A stretch of 64,000 nucleotides of DNA. It comes from Sporohalobacter salinus. Lineage in GTDB: Bacteria; Bacillota; Halanaerobiia; Halobacteroidales; Acetohalobiaceae. The notes below the pieces were generated by a model. That model ran no database searches, was not told the origin of the DNA, and saw only the letters and a list, made by a program, of their open reading frames with translations. Location of the stretch: contig NZ_JAFBEG010000004.1 in NCBI RefSeq assembly GCF_016908635.1, positions 1-64,000 on the forward strand, in the 5' to 3' direction. Shown here one piece after another: positions 54,437-57,796 of this stretch. The position numbers and the translations under genes were made by a program. How positions within the stretch are numbered: the stretch's first letter is position 1; every line of letters starts with the position of its first letter.

Positions 54437-54465
54437 TTGACTTTCATGAAAAATTAGGATATAGT
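54437..54465 (+). promoter_or_regulatory. Sigma-A-type promoter of the TrpXYZ-type transporter
   Basis: TTGACT (54437-54442), a 17-base spacer and TATAGT (54460-54465). Transcription would start near 54472, so the leader RNA is about 230 bases long up to the terminator. Confidence 0.7.
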
Positions 54466-54471
54466 TAACAT

Positions 54472-54704
54472 GTAGGGTCTTATATTTAAAGTAGGTTTGT
54501 AGAAACTGTAGGTTTTTATCTCTCTGTAGGAAGAGTAGATAATATTGTAGGGTAGTATAGAGAAAATTCTATTTAAAAATTGTAGTTAGGTTTTACGGTG
54601 GGAGATAACTCAAGCTTATATAATATATATACTAGTATTTGTATTTATGGCAGATGGTCAATCTATGGTTACTAGTATATATATTAGAGCGTTAGAGCGC
54701 ATTT
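54472..54704 (+). promoter_or_regulatory. Candidate leader RNA (attenuator or riboswitch) of the transporter
   Basis: Three parts can be seen. First, 54472-54604 is rich in TAG and GAG triplets (about fourteen), many as GTAG. Second, a perfect 16-bp stem AATATATATACTAGTA (54622-54637) / TACTAGTATATATATT (54670-54685) closes a 32-base loop. Third, TGGGAG (54599-54604) is complementary to CTCCCA (54710-54715), the 5' arm of the downstream terminator, so it can act as an antiterminator. This is a typical transcription-attenuation design. The signal is unknown; no known riboswitch core or T-box sequence is visible. Confidence 0.55.
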
Positions 54705-54736
54705 AAACACTCCCAATGGGAGTGTTTTTTATTTTT
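54705..54736 (+). terminator. Intrinsic terminator in the transporter leader
   Basis: 10-bp stem AAACACTCCC / GGGAGTGTTT with loop AAT, followed by T-rich sequence just before the ribosome site of the substrate-binding gene. Its position upstream of the gene makes it a conditional terminator. Confidence 0.85.
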
Positions 54737-54753
54737 AAAAGGAGTTGATGAAG

Positions 54754-55737
54754 ATGATAAATTTAATTAACAAAAAAATAGTATTAGGATTATTAATTTT
54801 AGGATTAATTATAGTAACAATAGGATGTGGTCAACAGCAAACTAGTGATAAAAAATTAAAGATTGGAGTTATTCAGATTGTAGAACATCCTGCTTTAGAT
54901 GCTGCTCGAGAAGGATTTGTTGATTTTTTAGCTGAGCAAGGATATAAAGAAGGGGAAAATGTGGTTTATGATTACCAGAATGCTCAGGGGGATATGTCTA
55001 CAGCTCAGACAATAGCTAAGCAGTTTAAAAATAATCAGGTAGATATGATTTTAGCAATTGCTACCCCTACAGCTCAAGTAGCTGCTAATACTACTTCCGA
55101 GATTCCTATTTTGATTACAGCAGTTACTGATCCAAAAGCAGCAGGATTAGTTAAAGATTTAGAGAAACCTGGAACCAATGTAACGGGAACTAGTGATTTA
55201 ACTCCAGTAGGAAAACAGTTAGAGTTATTAACTGAAATTAGTCCGAAAGTTAAAAATATTGGAATATTATATAATGCAGGAGAGACTAACTCTGTAGTAC
55301 AAGCTAAGTTAGCTCAAAAGAAATCAAAAGAATTAGGCCTTAACTTAATTGAAGGTGCTGTTAGTACTAGTAGTGATGTCTTTCAGGTAGCTCAAACATT
55401 AGCTGGAAAAGTAGATGCTTTCTATGTACCTACTGATAATACAGTAGCGTCAGCAATTGAATCGGTAGTAAAGGTTGCTAATGAAAATAATCTACCATTA
55501 ATTGTTGGAGAAGATGAATTAATTGATCGAGGCGGATTAGCTACTATTGGAATTAATTATTATCGTTTAGGTCAACAGACTGGAAGAATGGCAATTAAAG
55601 TTATTAATGGAGCAGATCCAGCTAAGATGCCGATAGAATATCAAAATAAAAAAGAATTAGTAATAAATAAAGAAGCCGCTAAAAAAATGGATGTAGATTT
55701 ACCAGAAGATATAGTTGAACAAGCTCAAGATAAATAA
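54754..55737 (+). CDS. ABC transporter substrate-binding lipoprotein (TrpX family)
   Basis: A 327-residue substrate-binding protein of the COG2984 (TrpX-like) family. The lipoprotein signal ends in lipobox TIGC. The mature part has IGVIQIVEHPALDAAREGF, ILAIATPTAQVAANTT and PILITAVTDPKAAGLV, all strongly typical of the family. Members are predicted to carry tryptophan or related aromatic compounds, but the specificity is often untested. ATG 54754 has AAAGGAG nine bases upstream; TTG 54745 and ATG 54748 are too close. It is under the leader terminator. A permease and ATPase follow. Confidence 0.92.
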   Translation: MINLINKKIVLGLLILGLIIVTIGCGQQQTSDKKLKIGVIQIVEHPALDAAREGFVDFLAEQGYKEGENVVYDYQNAQGDMSTAQTIAKQFKNNQVDMILAIATPTAQVAANTTSEIPILITAVTDPKAAGLVKDLEKPGTNVTGTSDLTPVGKQLELLTEISPKVKNIGILYNAGETNSVVQAKLAQKKSKELGLNLIEGAVSTSSDVFQVAQTLAGKVDAFYVPTDNTVASAIESVVKVANENNLPLIVGEDELIDRGGLATIGINYYRLGQQTGRMAIKVINGADPAKMPIEYQNKKELVINKEAAKKMDVDLPEDIVEQAQDK

Positions 55738-55774: not shown

Positions 55775-56671
55775 ATGATAACGTGGGGGACATTACTAAG
55801 TTCCGTAGAACAAGGGTTAGTTTATGGTATTATGGCTTTAGGTGTTTATCTGACCTTTAGAATTTTAGATTTTCCTGATTTAACTGTAGACGGTAGTTTT
55901 CCCTTAGGAGCTGCTGTGACTGCTAAGTTAATTGTTAGTGGAGTAGATCCTATATTAGCTACCTTAATAGCGATGTTAATTGGAGCTGCAGCAGGCGTGA
56001 TTACTGGAATTTTAAATACTAAATTAAAGATTGTAGGATTATTAGCAGGGATTTTGACAATGACTGCTCTTTATTCTATTAATTTACGCATTATGGGAAA
56101 GGCTAATATTCCATTACTTAAGCAAGAGACAGTTTTGACTAAGATAGAATCACTTGGGATTACTGGATCATGGCAGACTGGAGTTTTATTTTTAAGTGTC
56201 ATTATCCTTTTAAAATTATTGATAGATTGGTTTTTGCATACTGAATTGGGATTGGCTTTAAGAGCAACAGGAGATAATCAGCAGATGATTAGAAGTTTGG
56301 GGGTTAATACTGATCTGATGATTATTCTTGGCTTAGCTTTATCCAATTCGTTAGTTGCTCTTTCTGGTTCATTAGTAGCACAATATCAAGGCTTTGCTGA
56401 TGTTGGAATGGGAATTGGAATGATTATTATCGGTTTGGCTTCGGTAATTATTGGAGAAGTAGTTTTTAGTGATAAAACAATTGCTTGGGCTACTTTAAGT
56501 GTAATCGGGGGTTCAATAGTTTATCGTTTAGCTATTACTATTGCTTTGCGTCTAGGTTTTGCACCAACGGATTTAAAAATAGTAACGGCTGTGTTAGTAA
56601 TTTTTGCTCTGGCAGCACCTACTTTGAAGGAAGATTTTAATTTAAACTTGTTATCAAACAGTAGTTTTTAG
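55775..56671 (+). CDS. ABC transporter permease (TrpY family)
   Basis: A 298-residue membrane permease of the COG4120 family (branched-chain-type fold, eight to nine membrane segments). It begins WGTLLSSVEQGLVYGIMALGVY, then FRILDFPDLTVDGSFPLGAAV, and a cytoplasmic coupling segment near GLALRATGDNQQMIRSLGVN. The ATG at 55775 is preferred to an in-frame TTG at 55757; GGGGTGTTGG lies upstream. Follows the substrate-binding gene. Confidence 0.93.
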   Translation: MITWGTLLSSVEQGLVYGIMALGVYLTFRILDFPDLTVDGSFPLGAAVTAKLIVSGVDPILATLIAMLIGAAAGVITGILNTKLKIVGLLAGILTMTALYSINLRIMGKANIPLLKQETVLTKIESLGITGSWQTGVLFLSVIILLKLLIDWFLHTELGLALRATGDNQQMIRSLGVNTDLMIILGLALSNSLVALSGSLVAQYQGFADVGMGIGMIIIGLASVIIGEVVFSDKTIAWATLSVIGGSIVYRLAITIALRLGFAPTDLKIVTAVLVIFALAAPTLKEDFNLNLLSNSSF

Positions 56672-56688: not shown

Positions 56689-57486
56689 ATGCTAAAAGTA
56701 AAAAGAGTACGTAAAATATTTGGTCAGGGAACTGTTAATGAAAATTTAGCTCTTAAAGATATAGATTTGGAATTAAAAGCTGGTGAATTTGTAACTATTA
56801 TTGGTAGTAATGGTGCTGGTAAGTCTACATTATTAAATTCAATAGCTGGTACTTTTCCAATAAATTCAGGTAGTATTGAGGTAAATGGAATTGAATTGAC
56901 TGGTCAACCTGATTATAAGCGGGCTAGTTTAATTGGGCGCGTTTTTCAGGATCCTCTTGAAGGAACTGCTGCTTCTATGTCAATTGAGGAGAATTTAGCT
57001 ATGGCAGCAGCTCGCAGTAAAAGGCGAGGGCTAAGTATCGGAGTGGATAGTGAACGAAAAAAGGAGTTTAAGGAATATTTAAGTTTGTTAGGTTTAGGTT
57101 TAGAAGATAGATTAACCGATAAAGTAGGTCTCTTATCTGGTGGTCAGCGTCAATCTTTAACATTGCTTATGGCTACAATTGCTAGGCCAGAAGTGCTGCT
57201 TTTGGATGAACATACTGCTGCTTTAGATCCTAAGACGGCAGAACAAGTTATTAATTTAACTAATAAGATAGTAGACCAACATAATTTGACAGTATTAATG
57301 GTTACTCATGATTTAACTCAAGCTCTAGAGATGGGTAATAGAACAATTATGATGGATAATGGAGAAATAGTTTTAGATATTAAAGGTCTTGCTCGTAAAC
57401 AGATGACAGTAGATGATTTATTGGATGAATTTGCTCAAGTACAAGGGAAAGAACTAATGAATGATCGCATATTATTGGCTCAATAA
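56689..57486 (+). CDS. ABC transporter ATPase (TrpZ family)
   Basis: A 265-residue ABC ATPase of the COG1101 type. Walker A IGSNGAGKSTLLN (~38-50), signature LLSGGQRQSLTLL (~148), Walker B EVLLLDEHTAAL (~172) and H-loop TVLMVTHDLT (~205). DEHTAALDP is the family form in place of DEPT. It completes the transporter. The operon then ends without a clear terminator before the next small frame. Confidence 0.93.
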   Translation: MLKVKRVRKIFGQGTVNENLALKDIDLELKAGEFVTIIGSNGAGKSTLLNSIAGTFPINSGSIEVNGIELTGQPDYKRASLIGRVFQDPLEGTAASMSIEENLAMAAARSKRRGLSIGVDSERKKEFKEYLSLLGLGLEDRLTDKVGLLSGGQRQSLTLLMATIARPEVLLLDEHTAALDPKTAEQVINLTNKIVDQHNLTVLMVTHDLTQALEMGNRTIMMDNGEIVLDIKGLARKQMTVDDLLDEFAQVQGKELMNDRILLAQ

Positions 57487-57665: not shown

Positions 57666-57695
57666 ACTAGTGTATCTATTATCTGTCTATAGATA

Positions 57696-57778
57696 CTGCA
57701 TCAAGAGAGGCGGAGGGACAGGCCCGATGAACCCCGGCAACCAGCAACTTGCATGGTGCTAATTCCTAGGAGATGTGG
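57696..57778 (+). ncRNA. SAM-I riboswitch (S-box) of metK
   Basis: The aptamer has the S-box core: AAGAGAGGCGGAGGGACAGG, then CCCGATGAACCCCGGCAACC, GGTGCTAATTCC and the closing GGAGATGTGG. The P1 helix is CTGCATC (57696-57702) / GATGTGG (57772-57778). A terminator follows at 57797. With SAM bound, transcription of metK should stop. The AGAGAGG in the aptamer can also pair with CCTCTCT next to the terminator, a possible alternative fold. Confidence 0.95.
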
Positions 57779-57796
57779 TAGAATGGATTTTAATTA

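Follow-up and report, generated by a model that had tools for sequence, protein, structure and literature searches.

Within the 64-kb stretch of DNA that we analysed (henceforth the window), an untranslated leader lies between luxS and the genes of a TrpX-like ABC transporter (PF04392, BPD_transp_2 and ABC_tran), with metK further on (see Table 1). The substrate-binding protein of the transporter scored 350 bits against the NCBIfam TrpX model, which is under the family's cut-off of 390 bits. An earlier note on this DNA had described a promoter, a stretch rich in TAG and GAG triplets, a perfect 16-bp stem, an antiterminator strand and a terminator arm; every element was found where the note had placed it, and the stem was confirmed as an inverted repeat. 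We also detected a SAM riboswitch (RF00162, 63.6 bits) ahead of metK, at window positions 57695-57779. Given that metK has a SAM riboswitch of its own, its control is separate from that of the transporter, and we found no evidence that SAM or SRH controls the leader, a possibility raised by the luxS-metK setting.

Table 1. Features of the trpX leader and of the transporter genes that follow it (positions in the window).
Feature	Position	Strand	Basis
Sigma-70-type promoter, TTGACT-17-TATAGT	54437-54465	+	Consensus scan, 10/12 matches
Nine GUAG elements, proposed binding array for a HutP-like protein (site I region)	54472-54589	+	GUAG enrichment, 8-nt periodicity
Proposed site II, short hairpin AGTTA (54584-54588)/TAACT (54606-54610) around GGTTTTACGGTGGGAGA	54584-54610	+	Alignment of trpX and hutP leaders
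Antiterminator strand UGGGAG, which closes the last repeat (GGUGGGAG)	54599-54604	+	Duplex partner, nascent minimum free energy (MFE) fold
Bridging hairpin, perfect 16-bp stem 54622-54637/54670-54685	54622-54685	+	Inverted repeat, folds
CUCCCA, common to antiterminator and terminator	54710-54715	+	Folds
Intrinsic terminator, 10-bp stem (54705-54727), then U tract	54705-54730	+	Terminator scan
trpX-like gene, substrate-binding lipoprotein of ABC transporter (PF04392), controlled gene	54748-55737	+	Pfam, 2e-92
trpY-like gene, permease (PF02653)	55775-56671	+	Pfam
trpZ-like gene, ATPase (PF00005)	56689-57486	+	Pfam

The leader contains a single intrinsic terminator (10 bp followed by a T-rich tract; 0.0 expected in shuffled sequences), and the best upstream partner for the 5' arm of this terminator is the TGGGAG strand (-10.5 kcal/mol). 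Folding of the leader gave z = -3.9; for its nascent part up to position 54718 z was -3.7, and the MFE structure contained the antiterminator. Specifically, RNA from 54590 to 54718 folds into the antiterminator, which encloses the bridging hairpin (-35.1 kcal/mol), while in the presence of the 3' arm of the terminator it is the terminator that wins (-46.1 kcal/mol vs. -35.9 kcal/mol with the antiterminator forced). When the repeats were blocked in the folding, the antiterminator became impossible and the terminator remained. These nascent and full-length folds bear out the competition of TGGGAG with the terminator 3' arm for CTCCCA proposed in the earlier note, which was also right to place the last triplet inside the antiterminator strand, UGGGAG being the end of the last repeat. 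The leader is a genuine transcriptional on/off switch, and the suggestion of a transcription attenuator is supported: nascent RNA adopts the antiterminator and finished RNA the terminator.

The same fold switch was found in the leaders of four relatives, with a bridging hairpin of quite different sequence. A conserved 16-bp stem could thus be ruled out (no conservation of its sequence was found in the relatives, which have a hairpin of other sequence there), and the stem is most readily understood as one form that the bridging hairpin can take, i.e., a spacer that unites the two strands rather than an aptamer.

We then examined the triplet-rich stretch. Between positions 54470 and 54605 we counted 14 (G/U)AG triplets (11 UAG and 3 GAG), matching the earlier estimate of about 14, and the intervals between GUAG elements in its opening part (19, 8, 9, 18 and 9 nt) agree with the spacing of often around 9 bases noted before. 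Testing triplet density with dinucleotide shuffles, as had been proposed, gave a result that depended on the word: GUAG was strongly enriched (9 vs. a mean of 2.4; P = 0.0004), KAG in general less so (14 vs. 10.7; P = 0.03), and GAG not at all (3 vs. 2.9). The GUAG count of the array was the maximum among all 136-nt stretches on both strands of the window.

One protein known to read such triplets is TRAP (MtrB), and the array could be explained if TRAP with bound tryptophan were to cover it and free the terminator. The mtrB gene, for which the earlier note had proposed a search, is indeed present in this genome (PF02081, E = 1.4e-37; G000:C1:125752) and in 48 of 61 relatives; moreover, the transporter is TrpX-like, and a last triplet within the antiterminator strand is the layout of the Bacillus subtilis trp leader. 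However, recognisable TRAP targets look different. In this genome mtrB adjoins aroF-trpE on the upstream side, and the stretch after mtrB has GAG or UAG every 5 nt and then a terminator; across the trp-operon TRAP leaders of ten genomes we found a 5-nt spacing peak (z = 16.3), with GUA nearly missing. By contrast, in ten trpX leaders from the two nearest families GUA peaked at 8 nt (z = 6.2), and triplet spacing was irregular with peaks at 8 and 3 nt. The 14 triplets of our leader are likewise irregularly spaced, as opposed to the 9-11 (G/U)AG with 2-3 nt between them that are the norm for TRAP, and the earlier observation that they stand wider apart than in classical TRAP sites holds (8 nt vs. 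5 nt). The absence of GAG enrichment also speaks against TRAP, as does the distribution of this type of leader: mtrB is lacking in family f7 and in 7 of the 21 named genomes with the motif (described below) at trpX, the genomes without it including Thermoanaerobacterium and Lutispora; T. saccharolyticum, for instance, carries both the motif and HutP. Given that both spacing and distribution disagree, we reject TRAP as the reader of the trpX leader and consider its involvement as sole regulator unlikely. Of the earlier suggestion of TRAP-like control, a repeat-binding protein stays probable and TRAP itself does not. A TRAP-type GAG array over the trpX start codons of family f6 was also considered, and no 5-nt period was detected there. 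At locus L001 (1486-2020) mtrB immediately precedes aroF-trpE and is followed by a canonical TRAP array with 5-nt spacing and a terminator; more KAG clusters overlap the start of aroF.

A different candidate emerged from the genome's aromatic genes. A HutP-family gene heads the operon hutP-aroH-hisC-aroF-tyrA-aroA, whose leader has the same build as that of trpX, with GGTA repeats, GGTTGAACGGTAGGAG and the terminator CACTCCTTCCGGGAGTG. In hutP leaders of the same families (n = 11) spacing again peaked at 8 nt (z = 10.1). Judged from loci of known name, the window probably belongs to the class Halanaerobiia, within the family of Candidatus Frackibacter (G004 and G062 have identical coordinates). 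Extending the comparison to about a hundred genomes, we found that many Firmicutes carry the tandem motif GGYAG-N-AY upstream of trpX, repeated every 8 nt and usually in 2 or 3 copies (as RNA, the tripled unit is (GGUAGCAU)3). The tandem either reaches into the antiterminator strand, where it ends in GGYAGGAG, or covers the Shine-Dalgarno sequence and start codon (as at loci L072, L131 and L144). Clusters of three GGYAG with 8-nt spacing were found together with a HutP gene, and several leaders had two clusters; in three families of the class, as well as at L099, L105 and L131, a HutP-family gene (PF09021) lies directly upstream of the trpX leader. We compared 48 motif-bearing leaders in front of different genes; in 39 of them, the upstream sequence that pairs best with the terminator arm overlapped a repeat (14.4 expected; P < 0.0001). 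An exact triple repeat was absent from our own genome in the genome-wide pattern search. Since the array studied here is degenerate in this sense, we base its assignment on the word, the spacing and its likeness to the hutP leader. At one locus with two tandem trpX copies (L018/L044; G007:C1:49678-51709) the UAG array and terminator precede the first copy only.

Alignment of the two leader types further showed that trpX leaders have a short hairpin similar to the one around the last repeat of hutP leaders. In the hutP-leader stem that matches site II, 3 of 7 pairs were changed on both sides, as judged from five sequences and hence few rows. Covariation in the antiterminator helix was weak (only 3 pairs with double changes, a value reached in 33 of 500 shuffles) and we did not count it as proof. 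A looser site II pattern derived from our own family (GGTT-N-GTRGGAGW) was discarded, as besides trpX and hutP leaders its matches were mostly at chance level.

To quantify the link between motif and protein, we searched whole genomes for the triple repeat GGYARNAYGGYARNAYGGYAR (three repeats, at most 1 mismatch). It was found in 44 of 62 genomes with this HutP and in 1 of 18 without (Fisher P = 6e-7), and the reversed pattern had far fewer matches. These counts are not independent, as the genomes are related, and some of the genomes counted had also served to define the motif. Of the 21 named genomes that carry the motif at trpX, 20 have this HutP. At trpX alone the association was weaker (P = 0.03), because HutP genomes without a clear trpX motif are common (19 of the 27 named genomes whose examined trpX copy lacked the motif still carry HutP). 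No UAG array was found at trpX in family f5 and genome G059, both of which lack this HutP, and no triple repeat in four genomes with longer HutP paralogues only (G016, G025, G028 and G030). HutP-domain proteins also come in a form of about 263 aa (G000:C29:2706-3074 and relatives) and in a third one of about 160 aa; these are present in almost every relative and do not track the motif. An exact triple repeat (GGTAGCATGGTAGCATGGTAG) in G059 (L274; G059:C18:38882) has no obvious gene target and is probably due to chance.

An alternative raised in the earlier note is that the RNA itself senses a ligand, as a new riboswitch class or another RNA-only sensor. The stable leader fold and the small hairpin that covaries at the last repeat are compatible with this. 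Nevertheless, searches of the leader and 18 related loci with Rfam covariance models returned no match at the gathering score (including T-box in the leader), save one SAM riboswitch elsewhere in L131; a hit to the trpB motif (26 bits vs. a threshold of 59) was dismissed as chance. No conserved fold was found beyond the attenuator and the short hairpin, the sequence of the bridging hairpin is not conserved, the compact forms consist of three 8-nt repeats with little structure (elsewhere lying directly over start codons), and the motif tracks a protein gene. We thus regard an RNA-only sensor as highly improbable.

The genes behind the repeats suggest what such a protein may respond to. The motif precedes aroF, pheA, tyrA, aroH, hisC, aroA, trpXYZ and hutP itself. 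Operons of the type aroF-pheA-tyrA or aroF-tyrA follow it at L259 (Moorella), L266 (Desulforadius), L267 (Desulfofundulus), L260, L269, L271, L273 and L275, hutP-aroH is also found downstream of repeats, and trpXYZ follows them at L256-L258, L262 and L270; the trp operon was not found among the targets. Since these target genes are unrelated to one another, common descent of one leader fails to explain the motif. Histidine had to be considered as the ligand, as it is the signal for B. subtilis HutP and as some PF04392-type transporters are predicted to carry histidine (PMC9413887). We set it aside given that the regulon is aromatic; this gene set points to tyrosine or phenylalanine. In single lineages the repeats also precede DctP/DctM transporters, a sodium symporter with an AMP-binding ligase, or a LIV-type ABC transporter. 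Specifically, at L263, L264 and L268 (Desulfosporosinus/Peptococcaceae-like) HutP-type repeats and a terminator stand before DctP-family transporters whose substrate may be an aromatic acid, and at L265 repeats stand before a sodium:solute symporter and then an AMP-binding ligase, possibly for use of aromatic acids.

The protein encoded in our genome has a clear HutP domain (PF09021, 5.5e-50), and the structural model of its homologue at L105 (pLDDT 84.8, pTM 0.82) aligned over its full length with B. subtilis HutP (1vea; Z = 17.0, 2.4 A over 127 residues, 20% identity). Matches of the model to HutP structures ranged from Z = 14.5 to 17.0, the next unrelated fold reaching 8.1. A direct search of the PDB with our own HutP profile gave no HutP match, and the kinship is thus based on Pfam and fold. 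In a low-scoring profile alignment, for which the B. subtilis sequence was checked against PDB 1vea, His73 and His77 of B. subtilis HutP fall on invariant glycines 77 and 81. The alignment thereby placed the first two of the three histidines (His73, His77 and His138) that hold Mg2+ and L-histidine in the B. subtilis protein. As glycines appear to take their place here, a ligand other than L-histidine is plausible for the HutP-like protein. Taken together, the sequence comparisons indicate that the trpX leader is read by a branch of the HutP family not described before, one that seems to govern genes for aromatic amino acids; we found no link between HutP and aromatic genes in the open-access literature searched.

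From the computed alternative folds, shared 8-nt repeat, link with HutP, aromatic gene set and HutP fold, we infer how binding, ligand and direction of control may fit together, and consider it likely that the leader is a protein-dependent attenuator read by a HutP-family protein loaded with an aromatic amino acid. The protein, encoded elsewhere in the genome at the head of the hutP operon, would bind the GUAG array once loaded with an aromatic amino acid, of which tyrosine and phenylalanine are the likeliest; the last repeat of the array (GGUGGGAG) doubles as the antiterminator strand. With the protein absent or empty, this strand would pair with CUCCCA across the bridging hairpin and RNA polymerase would read into trpXYZ; with the protein bound, the strand would be hidden, the terminator would form and uptake would be switched off. 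The hutP operon itself would be regulated by the protein in this way too, and in other bacteria it would block translation where the repeats cover the start codon.

The opposite sign, with the HutP-like protein released by its ligand or activating, so that binding raises expression, has a precedent in B. subtilis HutP, which is an antiterminator (PMC7430163). It is nonetheless an improbable reading here: the repeats are located within the antiterminator strand, at L072, L131 and L144 they cover sites where binding should repress, and feedback on biosynthesis genes calls for repression. Alternatively, a HutP-type switch could be overlaid by weak binding of TRAP to some UAG or GAG triplets, such that both tryptophan and tyrosine or phenylalanine lower uptake. 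Both mtrB and hutP are present in the genome, the array offers 14 KAG triplets, and TRAP accepts some irregularity in their spacing. Yet the array has no 5-nt register and no finding requires TRAP, which makes joint action very unlikely.

More broadly, we lean towards a regulatory system widespread among Clostridia and Halanaerobiia. Its protein would be a HutP branch that differs from the B. subtilis histidine antiterminator in ligand and sign, senses tyrosine or phenylalanine, and acts by attenuation and by blocking translation at tandem GGYAG-N-AY repeats in front of aroF, pheA, tyrA, aroH, hutP and trpXYZ. If true, tyrosine and phenylalanine biosynthesis and aromatic uptake would, across much of the Firmicutes, gain the regulator and RNA site that they have so far lacked, and HutP proteins would have a role outside histidine use. 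It would also mean that one RNA-binding family can change both its ligand and the sign of its control, and that TRAP has a counterpart for the other aromatic amino acids on an unrelated fold. UAG-rich leaders in genomes with TRAP should thus not be assumed to be TRAP sites.

Compared with known systems, the closest relative of the proposed regulator is HutP at the B. subtilis hut operon, which binds clusters of three NAG repeats (PMC7430163). The two share the family (PF09021) and the fold (Z = 17), and the putative RNA sites here, clusters of three UAG-type repeats, would resemble those of HutP. They differ in protein sequence (only about 20% identity), in two ligand-metal histidines that align with glycines here, in the repeats (here GGYAG every 8 nt) and in the targets (here aromatic biosynthesis and transport, there histidine use). 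Furthermore, the site overlaps the antiterminator here and the terminator there, so the sign is probably opposite; judged by layout, the repeats (in the antiterminator strand in the 39 leaders above, or over start codons) do not suggest binding that prevents the terminator as in the hut operon. In its logic the proposed system resembles TRAP at the B. subtilis trp operon, where an amino-acid-bound protein covers an array that includes the antiterminator strand and frees the terminator, and also acts at start codons; here the protein, repeat word, spacing (8 nt, not 5) and regulon are different. Finally, attenuators of the T-box type precede the same class of ABC transporter, namely trpX in Streptococcus suis (PMC9382623) and hisXYZ (PMC9413887), in contrast to the trpX leader described here, which has no T-box match in Rfam and would instead be read by a protein.
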